DNA of 22,304 nucleotides, taken from the IMG/VR virus record IMGVR_UViG_3300025889_001053, positions 1 to 22,304 of that record, one strand, 5' to 3'. Below are positions 9,781 to 18,811 of the stretch, in pieces (the stretch's first letter is position 1; every line of letters starts with the position of its first letter). This stretch comes from a virus. The position numbers and the translations under genes were made by a program. The notes beneath the pieces were generated by a model. It saw only the letters and a list, made by a program, of their open reading frames with translations, was not told the DNA's origin and made no database searches.

Positions 9781-10260
9781 CTAAATGTGTGTCCAAGTTT
9801 GTCTGCGCACAATTTTTGCAATTGTGATGTGATGCACATCGTACTCGCTAGCCAACTGCTTGTACGTCACGCGGTGAGGTGTGTGCCGGTCCCTTATCGC
9901 TTTAACTTCCGCTTCCGTCAGAACCGCGTATCCATTTTTGGAGCCTCTAGGGGTTGTGCCATGCCGCATTGCGTCGGCGGAGTTCTCTCTCCGCGTTGCC
10001 CACCTTAGATGATGCGGATTACAGCAAAGCCGGTTCCCGCAAGAGTGCGCGGCCTCCTTGCCTTGCGGCTTAGGCCCGTGTGCCACCTCGCATATAAAGA
10101 AACTAGCTTTGCGCTGGCGGCCATCTGGCCAATCTACAGCGCCATATCCGTGGCAAAGCGACTTGAAAGGCCACAGTATACATTCGTCAGTTGGCGCGCA
10201 TTTCGCCGTCTCAATTACCCAAGCGACCCGCTCTCCGCGCCTTGCCTTCCTCGGAATCAT
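9781..10260 (-). CDS. HNH endonuclease with C-terminal helix-turn-helix
   Basis: 159 residues from ATG at 10260 (complement), overlapping the Rad52-like gene stop (ATGA). The nuclease core resembles the HNH type with KEAAHSCGNRLCCNPHHLRW (AH as first catalytic histidine, C..CC zinc ligands, N-P-H-H-L) followed by ATRRENSADAMRHG. The last 45 residues (EVKAIRDRHTPHRVTYKQLA, then EYDVHHITIAKIVRR) form a helix-turn-helix of the kind homing nucleases use for site recognition. It is the third HNH gene in about 2 kb. It is probably a mobile free-standing endonuclease. Confidence 0.88.
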   Translation of the reverse strand: MIPRKARRGERVAWVIETAKCAPTDECILWPFKSLCHGYGAVDWPDGRQRKASFFICEVAHGPKPQGKEAAHSCGNRLCCNPHHLRWATRRENSADAMRHGTTPRGSKNGYAVLTEAEVKAIRDRHTPHRVTYKQLASEYDVHHITIAKIVRRQTWTHI

Positions 10261-10898
10261 TCTGCGGCTTCCTTCTGGTACTCGGCCTCGGCAAGTTTCG
10301 TGCGATGGTCGGCAAATGCTTTTCTAATTGCGGTTTGGTCGGCTTCTGACAGGCCGCTAATTGTCGGCTTGTTTGCGACCGCCCACGCGCTCAGATCGTC
10401 AACCGTTTGCGCCATGCGCAGCGCGTCAATGAATGGCCCGGCAAGGCTTGGCGCATCGCAGACTTGCGCCTGATCCTTGTCATACAGCGCCAGACCAAAC
10501 GGATTGCCGAAGGTCATAAGCGCCCGCTTCATGGCGTCTGTTTCGGCTTCCTTGAGCGCGCTTTCGTGCGCAAGCCCCAGGTCAACATCAATGCCGTGGC
10601 CTGTCCCGTAGCCTTCGCGAACAACGCCCGCGACCGTCACGCGAACCTTGGCGACATAAGAGACGCCGAAGCCCTTTTTCTGTTGCTGGCCTATCGTGCG
10701 CTCGTGTTCCGCAACACAACGCATTTCCAGCGTTTCGCGCGTCCATTCGCCAAAGCCGAATATGCGGTTGGCCTCGGCTATCGCGTGCCAGCCTTCAATG
10801 TAGGATAGGGCGCGGCCCGCTTGCTTGCGTTCCTTGACGTGCGAGCGGACAAGCGGGGCCTCAAGGGCGGGTTTTACTGAGTGCCAATAGTCGCTCAT
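10257..10898 (-). CDS. Rad52-family single-strand annealing protein
   Basis: 213 residues from ATG at 10898 (complement). The Rad52/Rad22 signature is visible at residues 31-56: LSYIEGWHAIAEANRIFGFG followed by EWTRET. Later come GYGTGHG and HESALKEAETDAMKRALMTF, a typical Rad52 helix. It should bind single-stranded DNA and anneal complementary strands, serving phage recombination as Red-beta does. The C-terminal third (from about residue 150) is a helical extension of unknown role (TVDDLSAWAVANKPTISGLS). It overlaps Gp157 upstream and the HNH gene downstream by four bases each, so all are probably translated together. Confidence 0.92.
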   Translation of the reverse strand: MSDYWHSVKPALEAPLVRSHVKERKQAGRALSYIEGWHAIAEANRIFGFGEWTRETLEMRCVAEHERTIGQQQKKGFGVSYVAKVRVTVAGVVREGYGTGHGIDVDLGLAHESALKEAETDAMKRALMTFGNPFGLALYDKDQAQVCDAPSLAGPFIDALRMAQTVDDLSAWAVANKPTISGLSEADQTAIRKAFADHRTKLAEAEYQKEAAE

Positions 10899-14179: not shown

Positions 14180-14887
14180 ATGGTCCCCCGTCACGAAATC
14201 CTTGCTGAAGGCGTTGAACTCTGGTGCGGCGATATGCTGGAGATATTGCCGACGCTTGGGGAGTTTGATGCGTGTGTGACTGATCCGCCGTATGGGATTT
14301 TTAAAAAGACGGGCGGAAACGGGCGCATGTTTGGCAGGGACACAATATACACACAAGACGATAGCGCTGCCAAATGGGACCATAGGCCATCGCCTGAAAT
14401 GATCAGTCTGTGTCTCAATTCGTCAAAAAGTTTTGTGATATGGGGCGGAAATTATCTATGCGATTTAATAGGTCCATGCAAGGGGCCTTTGATATGGCAC
14501 AAGCTGACAGGCAACAACTCTTACGCAGATGCGGAGATTGCTTGGACTAATGTTTCAGGCACGGCTCGCGTTTTGTCGCATCAATGGTGCGGCGCTTTCA
14601 AGGATAGCGAACGCGGGCTTAGGGCGCTGCATCCAACGCAAAAGCCCATCGCTGTTATGGAATGGTGCATCAGTTTCCTACCCAATGCTGGCACCATCCT
14701 TGACCCATTCATGGGCTCCGGCACAACCGGCGTAGCAGCCATCAAGCGCGGCAAAGCGTTTTATGGCATAGAGCGCGAGCCAAAATACTTCGACATTGCT
14801 TGTCGGCGCATCAGCGATGCGCTGAAGGCCCCCGATATGTTTATCCCGGCTCCTGCGCCCAAACCCGTGCAGGAGCCGTTGCTATGA
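14180..14887 (+). CDS. DNA methyltransferase 1 (N4/N6 type, DPPY)
   Basis: 235 residues with GGGGG before ATG 14180. The catalytic motif TDPPYG is at residues 34-39 and the S-adenosylmethionine motif DPFMGSGTTG at 175-184, an order typical of the beta class; HPTQKP (151-156) is also present. It should methylate adenine N6 or cytosine N4 in a specific DNA site. Residues 1-40 and 175-235 closely parallel methyltransferase 2 at 18122-18811, while the middle (about 41-150), encoded by visibly more AT-rich DNA, is different. With no restriction enzyme next to it, it is probably an orphan used for self-protection against host restriction or for gene control. Confidence 0.92.
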   Translation: MVPRHEILAEGVELWCGDMLEILPTLGEFDACVTDPPYGIFKKTGGNGRMFGRDTIYTQDDSAAKWDHRPSPEMISLCLNSSKSFVIWGGNYLCDLIGPCKGPLIWHKLTGNNSYADAEIAWTNVSGTARVLSHQWCGAFKDSERGLRALHPTQKPIAVMEWCISFLPNAGTILDPFMGSGTTGVAAIKRGKAFYGIEREPKYFDIACRRISDALKAPDMFIPAPAPKPVQEPLL

Positions 14888-15657: not shown

Positions 15658-16185
15658 ATGACCGCGTTGCAAATCACACAGGAAGAAATCGGCAGCTTTG
15701 ACTACGAGGCCGCGAAGGCTCGCAAGGCCCGTATGTGGGGCGCTCCTGTCGTCAGCCGTCCTCGCCCTTTGCCTGTCATCAATTACCCTGTGCCTGCCCA
15801 TATTCGGCTTGGCAAGACGCGGTATCTGGAGCCTATCGGCCCGGTCAAGCGCCGCGATTGGATTGAGGTTCGGACCCCCACGCATCGCGGTCAGGCGATC
15901 CTTGAGGAAGTCGCCAAAAAGCACGGCATCAACCCGCGCGACATTATCGGCCCTTGGCGCAAGCATGAAATCTGCGTTGCCAGATTTGAGGCTGTGTACC
16001 GGCTGCGCGAGGAATTGATGATGAGCTTTCCGCAGATCGGGAGGTTTATTGGTGGGCGTGACCACACGTCTGCGCTCGCAGCCTATCGGCGGTTCAAGGG
16101 AATGCTGGAAGCTGGCGAGGCGCAGCCTGTTTTGTTGACCAAGGCGCGGGCGCTTCCGCTGTTTCAGGACAACCTAGATGGCTAA
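15658..16185 (+). CDS. DnaA domain-IV-like replication protein
   Basis: 175 residues. The C-terminal third (about 105-150) matches the DNA-binding domain IV of the bacterial initiator DnaA: CVARFEAVYRLREELMMSFP, then QIGRFIGGRDHTSALAAYRR, including the DnaA signature GGRDHT (132-137). The ATPase domain of DnaA is absent; the N-terminal part (to 75) is a basic, Pro-rich stretch. Such DnaA-like proteins occur in alphaproteobacterial phages and may recognise the origin or divert the host initiator. It overlaps the DUF1376 gene, which carries the iterons, supporting a joint role in origin firing. Confidence 0.87.
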   Translation: MTALQITQEEIGSFDYEAAKARKARMWGAPVVSRPRPLPVINYPVPAHIRLGKTRYLEPIGPVKRRDWIEVRTPTHRGQAILEEVAKKHGINPRDIIGPWRKHEICVARFEAVYRLREELMMSFPQIGRFIGGRDHTSALAAYRRFKGMLEAGEAQPVLLTKARALPLFQDNLDG

Positions 16186-17044
16186 CAACCTCTATATCCC
16201 GTTCCATCCCGGCGACTATCTGGCCGATACGGCGCACCTGTCGGCGGCGGAACATGGCGCGTATTTTTTGCTCATCCTTAACTATTGGCAGCGCGGCGAG
16301 CCGTTGCCGGATGATGACCGGAAATTGCGCGGCATTGCCCGCATGTCTGCCGACGAATGGGCGGCAGCCAAAGAAACCGTGCTTGAGTTTTTCGACGCAC
16401 GGGATGGGCTGTTGCACCACAAGCGGATTGACGAGGAATTAGACAAGGCGCGCGAGCGGTCGGACAAGGCGCGCGAAAATGGCCTTCGTTCAGCCAATGC
16501 GAGGCAAAATGGCAGCAACCGTTCAGCGCCCGTTAAGCAACCGTTGAACGAGCGTTCAACGACCGTTGAGCGACCGTTGAGCGACCGTCCAACTAATCAG
16601 GATCAGGATCAGGATATAGAAGAAGCTATCGCTTCTTCTACGCACGAAGCGAAGCTTTCGGTTTTGGAAATCCAGCGCCAACTTGAGCAAGCGACCGGCT
16701 GGCACGACCTCCCCGGCGTAGGCGCAATCGAGAAGCTGCTATCGGAAGGCCATTCTTTCGAGGGGCGAATACTCCCCCTTGCCCGCGACGAGGCCGAGCG
16801 ACGAACGAGCGCGCCCGGCGGCTGGACCTATCTTGCGGCAGTCGTGCGCGACAAGACGCGCCAGCCCACGGCGGCAGCGAAGCCGGTTGAAATGACGTGG
16901 GTGCCGCTCGGCTCGCAAGCTTGGAAAACGCTTACCGCCAAGAAACGCGAAGGCTATTTGCGGTCGATGTTGAAACCTGGACCGGGCGGCGAAGGCATCT
17001 ATTGGCCCGCGCATGAACTGGCAAACCAAGGGGCAGCGGCATGA
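16178..17044 (+). CDS. DUF1376 (YdaU-type) replication initiator-like protein
   Basis: 288 residues from ATG 16178, overlapping the DnaA-like gene by eight bases. The N-terminal domain (about 1-90) has the DUF1376 pattern: PFHPGDYLADTAHLSAAEHG, AYFLLILNYWQ and LPDDDRKLRGIARM, a winged-helix-like fold. A Ser/Asn/Pro-rich linker at about 110-150 is encoded by seven 11-base iterons and a hairpin, exactly where lambda O protein carries its origin. The C-terminal domain (170-288) is helical and contains GGWTYLAAVVRDK, a typical ending for phage replication proteins. It probably binds the iterons and recruits host helicase; no phage helicase gene is visible. Confidence 0.88.
   Translation: MANNLYIPFHPGDYLADTAHLSAAEHGAYFLLILNYWQRGEPLPDDDRKLRGIARMSADEWAAAKETVLEFFDARDGLLHHKRIDEELDKARERSDKARENGLRSANARQNGSNRSAPVKQPLNERSTTVERPLSDRPTNQDQDQDIEEAIASSTHEAKLSVLEIQRQLEQATGWHDLPGVGAIEKLLSEGHSFEGRILPLARDEAERRTSAPGGWTYLAAVVRDKTRQPTAAAKPVEMTWVPLGSQAWKTLTAKKREGYLRSMLKPGPGGEGIYWPAHELANQGAAA
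16519..16640 (+). repeat. Probable replication origin: seven 11-base iterons plus hairpin
   Basis: Copies of a CCGTTGAGCGA-like unit begin at 16519, 16530, 16541, 16552, 16563, 16574 and 16585, a strict 11-base period. Two units (16563, 16574) are identical; the core [CG]CGTT is kept in the first six and the seventh is CCGTC. Three ATCAGG repeats (16596-16613) follow, then a 10-bp perfect hairpin: TAGAAGAAGC (16617-16626), loop TATC, GCTTCTTCTA (16631-16640). The array lies within the DUF1376 gene. One repeat per DNA turn puts all binding sites on one face, as in iteron origins. Confidence 0.8.
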
Positions 17045-17592
17045 AGTTCCGGCGCGAATGGGCCATGCCTTCGCCAGATACTTTGTCGATATTTCCGATT
17101 GCTTGCTTTGTGCAGCGGCACATTGCGGGGGCGAAAATCATCGTGGACCCGTTTGCGCGCAATTGCATGATTGGTACGCACCGAAATGACCTTAACCCGG
17201 AAACGTTAGCGCAAGACCATATGGATGCAGTCAAATGGCTGGAAAAGTTAAATAGTCAAAATATTCGCGCGGATGCCGCAATATTTGACCCGCCATATTC
17301 TCCGCGCCAAGTAAGCGAAGTTTATCAATCTGTTGGAATCAGATGCGGCATGGAAGATACCCAAACGGCAAAATTATACGGGCGAGCCCGCACGGCGCTT
17401 GATCGTATTATGAAACCCGGCGCGGTTGTTCTGTCGTTTGGTTGGAGCAGCAACGGCATGGGTGTCAAACGCAGATATAAAATTGAGGAAATCTTACTAG
17501 TCGCGCACGGCGGCGCGCACAATGACACCATCTGTATTGCAGAGCGTAAGTGCGCCCAAGATTTGTTCGCATCGGCAGAGGAGGCGGCATGA
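17041..17592 (+). CDS. DNA methyltransferase 3 (adenine-specific-like, DPPYS)
   Basis: 183 residues from ATG 17041, overlapping the previous stop (ATGA). A short S-adenosylmethionine-site-like motif VDPFAR is at residues 35-40, followed by RNDLNP (48-53) and the catalytic DPPYS (83-87) with PRQVSEVY. This order (cofactor motif first) differs from methyltransferases 1 and 2 and corresponds to phage enzymes annotated as adenine-specific DNA methyltransferases. The region after DPPY (MKPGAVVLSFGWSSNGMG) is family-like. Much of 17150-17500 is AT-richer than its neighbours, suggesting recent acquisition. It probably modifies phage DNA, but target and function are not readable. Confidence 0.85.
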   Translation: MKFRREWAMPSPDTLSIFPIACFVQRHIAGAKIIVDPFARNCMIGTHRNDLNPETLAQDHMDAVKWLEKLNSQNIRADAAIFDPPYSPRQVSEVYQSVGIRCGMEDTQTAKLYGRARTALDRIMKPGAVVLSFGWSSNGMGVKRRYKIEEILLVAHGGAHNDTICIAERKCAQDLFASAEEAA

Positions 17593-18125
17593 AGCGCAAA
17601 CCCGGAGACCGCTACGCAAACGGACGGCTAAAGCGCCCTACAATCGAACAGCTAAAGCAGATGGAAGCCGAGAGGTATCGCGAGAACATGCAGCAAGCCG
17701 CACAGCAGCCCCACAGGCGTGGTTTTCGTGATCCCCTGGACCCGCGCCTTGAAAGCGCGCTTGGCCGGTTCTGCGCCATCCGTGGGCTCCGTGGCGAGCT
17801 ATACGACGCGGGACATGAGTGGGCAGACATGCGCCGCTCATGGAATCAGGCCAAGGGCGTTCCCTCGCAAATCAAACTTGGCGGCGGCACGGGGGCAGGG
17901 CCTTCCGATGCGACCGTTGCCAGATGGGGCCGCATCCTCAACGACATTGACGAGGCGCTGTATGACGCCAACGCGGCGACGTTGTGGGCTGTTCGGCGGC
18001 TTTGCATTGATAACGTGGCCCCAAGCCGGGAATTTGAGCCATACGCCATTCGTGGCTTGACGATTGTAGCGGAAACCTTGGGGCGGGTGGAAAGCAACGT
18101 GCATCCTTTTGTGAGGGCGGCGTGA
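17589..18125 (+). CDS. Conserved hypothetical phage protein
   Basis: 178 residues from ATG 17589 at an ATGA overlap. A basic N-terminal region (MKRKPGDRYANGRLKRPTIE) is followed by a long helical body with DPRLESALGRFCAIRGLRGE, AGHEWADMRRSWNQAKGVP and, later, TVARWGRILNDIDEALYDAN. I recognise the layout from alphaproteobacterial phages but not a function. Lying just before the last early gene, at the end of the rightward early operon, it occupies the position of lambda's late regulator Q; an antiterminator role is possible but there is no motif evidence. It ends at a GTGA overlap with methyltransferase 2. Confidence 0.68.
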   Translation: MKRKPGDRYANGRLKRPTIEQLKQMEAERYRENMQQAAQQPHRRGFRDPLDPRLESALGRFCAIRGLRGELYDAGHEWADMRRSWNQAKGVPSQIKLGGGTGAGPSDATVARWGRILNDIDEALYDANAATLWAVRRLCIDNVAPSREFEPYAIRGLTIVAETLGRVESNVHPFVRAA

Positions 18126-18811
18126 GCCCACGGCGCGAAATACTGGCGGAAGGCGTCGAGCTTTGGTTGGGCGACTGCCGCGAAGTGTTGCCGCTGATTG
18201 GGCCGGTTGACGCGGTTGTGACAGACCCGCCTTATGGAATTGGGCTAGAGTATTCGGAAGCTTTTTCTGACGATGAAGCTTACGTTTTAGAACTTGTTAA
18301 GACTATTATACCTTGGGCAGAGGCTAACGCTAAACGAACACTTATAACATCAGGAAATCAGTGCCAGCATTTGTACCCGCGCCCCAAATGGACGCTTGCT
18401 TGGGTTACGCCCGCTGGCGCCGGAAGCGGGCCTTGGGGTTTTTCTTGCTGGCAACCAATCCTTGCCTATGGCTCCTGTCCCTATCTGGCGTCTGGTAAGG
18501 GGCGCAGGCATGACATTTTCATGCATACAGAGGCGAGCGAGCCTAATGGGCATCCTTGCCCGAAGCCAATTCGGTTTATGGAGAGGCTGGTTGAGCGCGC
18601 CGCGCTTGTGGGTGATTTGGTCTGTGACCCATTCATGGGGAGTGGAACCACAGGCGCAGCGTGCGTGAAGCAGGGGCGGCGCTTTGTGGGTGTTGAGATT
18701 GAACCGCGCTATTTCGACATCGCCTGCCGCCGCATATCCGACGCGCTCAAGGCTCCTGACCTGTTCATTCCCACGCCCGCGCCAAAGGCAAAGCAGGAGA
18801 GTCTTTTATAG
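18122..18811 (+). CDS. DNA methyltransferase 2 (paralogue of methyltransferase 1)
   Basis: 229 residues from GTG 18122 (GTGA overlap). Motifs: TDPPYG at 34-39, HPCPKP at 144-149 and DPFMGSGTTG at 169-178. The first 40 residues (REILAEGVELWLGDCREVLP) and the last 40 (YFDIACRRISDALKAPDLFI) are close to methyltransferase 1; residues 41-140 are not. The distinct middle is encoded by AT-rich DNA at about 18240-18370. The central section probably holds target recognition, so the two enzymes likely methylate different sites. It is the last gene of the rightward early operon, followed by a 351-base non-coding stretch. Confidence 0.92.
   Translation: MSPRREILAEGVELWLGDCREVLPLIGPVDAVVTDPPYGIGLEYSEAFSDDEAYVLELVKTIIPWAEANAKRTLITSGNQCQHLYPRPKWTLAWVTPAGAGSGPWGFSCWQPILAYGSCPYLASGKGRRHDIFMHTEASEPNGHPCPKPIRFMERLVERAALVGDLVCDPFMGSGTTGAACVKQGRRFVGVEIEPRYFDIACRRISDALKAPDLFIPTPAPKAKQESLL

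Follow-up and report, generated by a model that had tools for sequence, protein, structure and literature searches.

Why would a predicted replication initiator gene carry, in the middle of its coding sequence, a tandem array of 11-bp repeats, a run of hexamers, and a perfect palindrome? We found this arrangement in a 22.3-kb virus record (IMGVR_UViG_3300025889_001053, 22,304 nt; an incomplete contig), which we refer to as the window. A first-pass annotation had described it as an origin-like layout, parallel to the lambda origin within gene O. From comparisons of sequences, we argue that 16519-16640 is most likely this phage's replication origin, of the lambda type and inside the gene for its own DUF1376 initiator.

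The DUF1376 gene and its repeats

DUF1376 (YdaU) is an uncharacterised family that is widespread in phages and prophages. The gene in the window (16178..17044, plus strand) encodes 288 amino acids and belongs to this family (PF07120, 1.2e-27): residues 6-88 match with 96.5 bits, against a gathering cutoff of 30.1. We predict that it is a replication initiator, based on Pfam, PHROG, and an AlphaFold2 model. Its best-annotated PHROG matches are named "primosomal protein," and the gene is present unchanged in two more virus records. In the AlphaFold2 model (from 87 sequences), a confident winged helix (residues 8-90) is followed by a long helix (82-115), a low-confidence linker (about 116-160) that is probably disordered, and a C-terminal domain (162-285). 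In structural comparisons, initiators of the RepA plasmid type, ORC2, and DnaD match the winged helix with Z of about 6, but unrelated winged helices score equally, so we treat the likeness to initiators as only suggestive. Similarly, RepA_N/DnaD-type folds (5kbj, 4pt7, 4pta, and 4pql) score Z 5.5-6.1, and generic winged helices are equal. Foldseek found no match in PDB at E ≤ 0.001, and searching PDB sequences with a profile of the DUF1376 family gave no significant match.

About 340 bp into the gene, there are seven 11-bp iterons without gaps (16519..16595, plus strand), which encode residues 114-140 and have the near-dyad core GTT[CGA]A[AG]C. The first-pass annotation listed seven starts exactly 11 bases apart, and this is exact: the units begin at 16519, 16530, 16541, 16552, 16563, 16574, and 16585. 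In order, they are CCGTTCAGCGC, CCGTTAAGCAA, CCGTTGAACGA, GCGTTCAACGA, CCGTTGAGCGA (twice), and CCGTCCAACTA. Across the array, 77% of bases are identical at a lag of 11, and TRF reports a period of 11 (6.9 copies, score 82) or, for the same array, a period of 33 (score 103). The linker has a lag-11 score of 39, which was reached by none of 20,000 codon shuffles (the maximum was 12). Across the 22.3 kb, the lag-11 signal has z = 9.5 at the array, versus 5.1 at the next best place. A degenerate iteron-like unit, TCGTTCAGCCA, lies in phase with the array, 33 bp upstream of the first iteron (16486..16496, plus strand).

The ATCAGG repeats and perfect palindrome that had been described downstream are present as well. 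TRF finds 3.3 copies of the ATCAGG hexamer (16596..16615, plus strand), which we consider a candidate unwinding element; this tract is just moderately A+T-rich (the GC content of 16596-16640 is 40%). The palindrome (16617..16640) can form a hairpin with perfect 10-bp arms, TAGAAGAAGC[TATC]GCTTCTTCTA, which was reached by 5 of 5000 codon shuffles. Either strand, folded as single-stranded DNA, has an energy of about -9 kcal/mol, with a z-score near -5. We rejected an intrinsic terminator, as a terminator scan makes no such call, and an Rfam search of the window found no RNA family. Together, the iterons, short repeats, and hairpin encode residues 114-155, which are mostly in the low-confidence linker. 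In other words, the gene has tandem dyad iterons in the linker between its DNA-binding and C-terminal domains.

The 11-bp phase across the DUF1376 family

That the period is not divisible by three had been taken to imply selection on the DNA. This is not sufficient by itself because replication slippage could yield any period. Indeed, the repeats might be a neutral minisatellite that arose by slippage in a disordered, unconstrained part of the protein and has no function in the DNA. The array is in the low-confidence linker, as such a minisatellite might be, and the adjoining 5-7-bp arrays resemble slippage products. The relatives of the gene bear on this question.

We searched viral contigs, genomes, and phage records for DUF1376 genes and removed those that were at least 75% identical, which left 132 genes. 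(When we scanned genome contigs, a single-protein query gave nothing, but an alignment query found DUF1376 genes.) A second set of 92 more genes, fetched later, is non-redundant with the first 132. For counting, we defined the linker region as nucleotides 246-540 of the gene.

Lag-11 runs are present in 62 of the 132 linkers, versus 0.15 expected from codon shuffles, and in 29 of 92 linkers from the second set, versus 0.1 expected. In the flanking DNA of DUF1376 loci, 5 of 2864 windows have such runs. A minisatellite should have no preferred period, yet among the 132 linkers, there are just 5 genes with runs at lag 9, 2 at lag 10, and none at lag 13. (Lag-12 runs are mainly due to hexamers.) Diverged cores also retain the spacing: across 155 classified genes, core-to-core distances peak at 11/12, 22 to 24, and 33 to 35 bp (196 at 11 bp, versus 2 expected; 47 at 12; 112 at 22; 50 at 23; and 57 at 33), and the cores are found in all three reading frames. 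If we identify iterons by either a lag-11 run or a core class, then 166 of 224 genes have them, and in the other 58 genes, neither criterion detected any. The core-class label has a background of 5% in shuffled linkers and 2.7% in C-terminal segments. The N-terminal segment exceeds the lag-11 threshold as well in 14 genes, but this segment encodes the conserved domain and these cases are not mutually independent, so we drew nothing from them.

Thus, family members keep the 11-base phase in the same part of the gene even as their units differ in sequence, which is evidence for DNA-level selection that the period alone cannot give. Across these sets of genes, the comparison shows that 11-bp arrays in the linker are a trait of the DUF1376 family.

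We noticed some variations on the spacing. Thirteen of the 92 genes in the second set have lag-23 runs, as though 11- and 12-bp spacings alternated. The L012 gene has two 11-bp iteron-like units (ACGCACGTTGA) at nucleotides 178-202, in the part that encodes the winged helix and well upstream of its linker array. And four genes (L117, L125, L053, and L050) have AACCCA/TGGGTT-type units at roughly 11-12-bp spacing, which are outside the iteron classes that we counted.

In the linkers, the overrepresented words are dyads whose central base is free: GCAnTGC occurs 104 times (8.8 expected), GTTnAAC occurs 66 times (4.6 expected), and GCTnAGC occurs 24 times (10 expected). A typical 11-mer comprises a dyad of 7 bp (often 9 bp) and a short spacer, with one unit per helix turn. 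That the cores are dyads is another argument against a minisatellite. The unit varies by gene; for example, it is TTCAACGGACG in phiLM21, AACGCACTGCG in L003, AATGCCCAAGC in L063, and AGCGAACGCTC in L023. The class of the unit clusters on the tree of DUF1376 domains (0 of 500 shuffles were as low), yet it switches many times. The window's gene (GTTnAAC) and its sister L003 (GCAnTGC) are of different classes, and their domains are 61% identical. Many columns of the winged helix are associated with class; for example, N or Q is present at position 58 (as numbered in the window's protein) in 19 of 37 class A genes and in 0 of 47 class B genes. We do not claim that a specific residue contact sets the class because just two independent pairs are supported.

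The unit motifs are about 90-130 times denser in the linkers than elsewhere in these loci, where they are near background, on the promoter side as well. This bears on the idea that the repeats are an operator or another regulatory site, for DUF1376 or for some other regulator, instead of an origin. Tandem dyad sites for a winged-helix protein could also act in repression, and lambda-type phages keep their early operons under tight control. However, we would not expect an operator to lie this deep in the gene with so little of the motif on the promoter side, and annotated origins have their elements in the same order as the array, the adjoining short repeats, and the hairpin (see below). We consider a regulatory site to be quite improbable.

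Besides the iterons, 84 of the 132 linkers have arrays of 5-7-bp repeats, versus 1.05 expected. These short arrays are usually just 3' of the iterons, where a median of 12 bp separates them from the last core. G is scarce in them, and their GC content is 40%, versus 55% for the genes. Their units include ACAGAT, ACCTTC, AATCAC, and ATCAGG, among others; as the units differ between genes, so do the encoded dipeptides.

Hairpins are concentrated just beyond the short arrays. In the first 60 nt on the 3' side, 17 of 80 genes have hairpins whose arms are 7 nt or longer, versus 1.2 expected, and farther away, the counts are near expectation. The corresponding count in the second set is 9 of 57 genes (1.0 expected). 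Across the linkers of 213 genes, we found 86 hairpins with tetraloops and arms of at least 6 nt (12.8 expected). The stems vary by gene, while the loop is constant in type (TAAA, TAAC, TGAC, TAGC, or TATC), which would be surprising for a minisatellite. We summarized these loops as T[AG]N[AC]. This rule was derived from the first set, and we counted its matches in the two sets combined: linkers of the 213 genes have 39 such hairpins, versus 1.4 expected, and the N- and C-terminal segments have one each. The second set by itself has 9 hairpins whose arms reach 7 nt or more, and 4 of them obey the rule. Loops of this type were seen in 38 surveyed genes, including the window's gene with its TATC loop. 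Given the preferred period, the dyads, and the conserved loops, we consider a neutral minisatellite to be extremely unlikely.

Neighboring genes, DnaA, and GC skew

Directly upstream of the DUF1376 gene is a gene with a DnaA C-terminal helix-turn-helix domain (Bac_DnaA_C, PF08299; 15658..16185, plus strand), whose product is a possible accessory factor. The first-pass annotation considered this pairing unusual, but it recurs: 20 of 132 loci, including phiLM21, have such a gene within 1.5 kb. Could this protein, or the host's DnaA, bind the iterons instead of DUF1376? The adjacency in both the window and phiLM21 would fit. On the other hand, 89 loci have iterons but no detected DnaA-C gene within 1.5 kb, and the window has no perfect DnaA box (TTATNCACA) and 8 sites with one mismatch, versus 8.8 expected by chance, so a DnaA-domain neighbor is not needed for the array. 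Also, the class of the unit is clustered on the DUF1376 tree, which favors DUF1376 as the binder. Overall, we give little credence to binding by a DnaA-type protein. With DnaA boxes at chance level in the window, we also rejected a DnaA/oriC-type origin.

Helicase or helicase loader homologues are within 1.5 kb of the DUF1376 gene in 33 of 132 loci, which is a conservative count from a deliberately short list of seeds. With this short list, we found no match in the window, which is an incomplete contig. In Rac-SA53, a homologue of lambda P is downstream of the DUF1376 gene, and in AH02 and in the Rac prophage of K-12, AAA+ loader genes are downstream. The C-terminal part of the L003 protein matches the DNA-binding domain of DnaT.

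A switch in GC skew at the array had been proposed as a check on the origin. There is no switch at 16.5 kb, and the cumulative minimum is near 10.5 kb, so we did not use GC skew as an origin marker. Phage AH02 has its GC-skew minimum at 25.0 kb, close to the DUF1376 gene at 26.5 kb, but a switch of transcription is also nearby, so this proximity is hardly informative.

We noticed a few other genes in the window. The replication region lies between two DNA-methylase-like genes (14180-14887 and 18122-18811), which are 42% identical across 239 aligned columns, and a third gene of the methyltransferase type (PHROG 11619) is at 17041-17592. A gene for a Rad52-family annealing protein (PF04098, 2e-36) is at 10257-10898 on the minus strand.

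Known origins and a proposed mechanism

The most similar origin that we know of is in gene 18 of phage L, which has six 11-bp repeats (TGTCCAACGGA) and was reported as the likely origin (PMC8022706); the phage L record also annotates these repeats as a putative origin. As in many DUF1376 genes, 11-bp tandem repeats occupy the central part of the initiator gene in the phage L and HK620-type origins; an A+T-rich tract and then a hairpin with a TAAC, TGAC, or TAAA loop follow. Even the unit is similar (TGTCCAACGGA versus CGTTCAACGGA for class A of DUF1376). In phage L itself, the hairpin beyond the repeats and the A+T-rich tract is TCTCTAATAC[TAAC]GTATTAGAGA. Relatives of phage L have a TGAC loop or, with other stems, TAAC and TAAA, and these are in the loop set of DUF1376 genes; HK620 has the same 11-bp period and loops as phage L. 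Phage L differs in that a DnaB-type helicase gene follows the initiator and in that the A+T-rich tract replaces regular hexamers. As compared by Pfam domain matches, the proteins also differ: nothing in the phage L record, including gp18, matches the DUF1376 domain, and the window's protein matches DUF1376 only.

The parallel with the lambda origin holds up, although not in every detail. Like many DUF1376 genes, gene O has dyad iterons in its middle and a hairpin farther 3'; the hairpin directly follows the opening region, which adjoins the iterons. As in some DUF1376 loci, a loader gene is adjacent. More broadly, the initiator genes of lambda, P22, HK620, and phage L have an order similar to that of DUF1376 genes: iterons, short repeats or an A+T-rich tract, and a hairpin. 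However, lambda's iterons are 18 bp long and spaced by 20-24 bp (20/24/23), its initiator is from another protein family, and its hairpin has a GAAT loop, unlike the T[AG]N[AC] loops of DUF1376 genes. (P22 also has a hairpin at the corresponding place with another loop, and the sites in phi80 are spaced by 20-21 bp.) We rejected assignment of the window to the lambda O family proper, with its 18-20-bp iterons every 20-24 bp, as the window's spacing is 11 bp. When we scanned viral contigs with lambda O and gp18 as queries, the matches were mostly near-copies, so these scans yielded few independent origins.

Plasmids of the RepA_N type, such as pSK41, also have the origin within the rep gene, in a part that encodes a dispensable linker (PMC5703833). 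Their winged-helix N-terminal domain, which has a DnaD-like fold, binds the repeats (PMC5703833). But these plasmids are mainly from Firmicutes, the RepA_N domain was not found in the window's protein (DUF1376 is its sole Pfam domain at E ≤ 0.01), and the folds match with Z of about 6 only.

The Rac prophage of E. coli K-12 has an active origin, oriJ (PMC3945230), and its YdaU is a DUF1376 protein. The linker of ydaU (L174:120-977) has an ATACAG tract and degenerate cores of the GTTnAAC type, roughly 11-13 bp apart. Although this array is degenerate, unlike the window's, these cores and the ATACAG tract may mark oriJ.

How might such an origin work? We infer that DUF1376 binds the iterons, that the adjoining tract melts, and that replication starts here. 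Specifically, the winged-helix (DUF1376) domain at the N terminus would bind the 11-bp dyad iterons. With one iteron per helical turn, we propose that the initiators would stack along one face of the DNA, and the resulting strain would open the adjoining short-repeat tract. The C-terminal domain would recruit a helicase from the host or the phage, either directly or via a helicase loader. The hairpin 3' of the tract would be a third element of the origin, with a conserved loop; as folded single-stranded DNA, it might serve in helicase loading or primosome assembly.

We also suggest, tentatively and with more doubt than confidence, that origins within initiator genes of Gram-negative phages generally have a third element just beyond the opening tract on its 3' side: a hairpin with a variable stem and a conserved T[AG]N[AC] loop, which reads G/T-N-N-A on the opposite strand. 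This element would be common to families without detected sequence similarity (DUF1376 and phage L gp18) and would be read, as folded single-stranded DNA or RNA, by a common factor, probably from the host.

An origin embedded in an initiator gene is of an already known kind, and the closest prior report is of the 11-bp repeats in phage L, whose initiator lacks DUF1376 (PMC8022706). What appears to be new is that such arrays are present across the DUF1376 family, that they consist of 11-bp dyad iterons that switch class, and that a loop-conserved hairpin is shared with a family without detected DUF1376. In the literature that we could search, which covers subscription journals poorly, we found neither a paper that treats DUF1376 as an initiator nor binding or replication data for any DUF1376 protein.

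Our results give DUF1376 (YdaU) a specific candidate role, as a replication initiator, and suggest a way to locate the origins of many phages that encode it, given just their sequences. In particular, we predict that the origin of the Rac prophage is in ydaU or overlaps it. Close relatives with different types of iterons, such as the window's gene and L003, could be a natural system for studying how the specificity of initiators evolves. Finally, our results draw attention to a conserved hairpin and to the factor that may read it.
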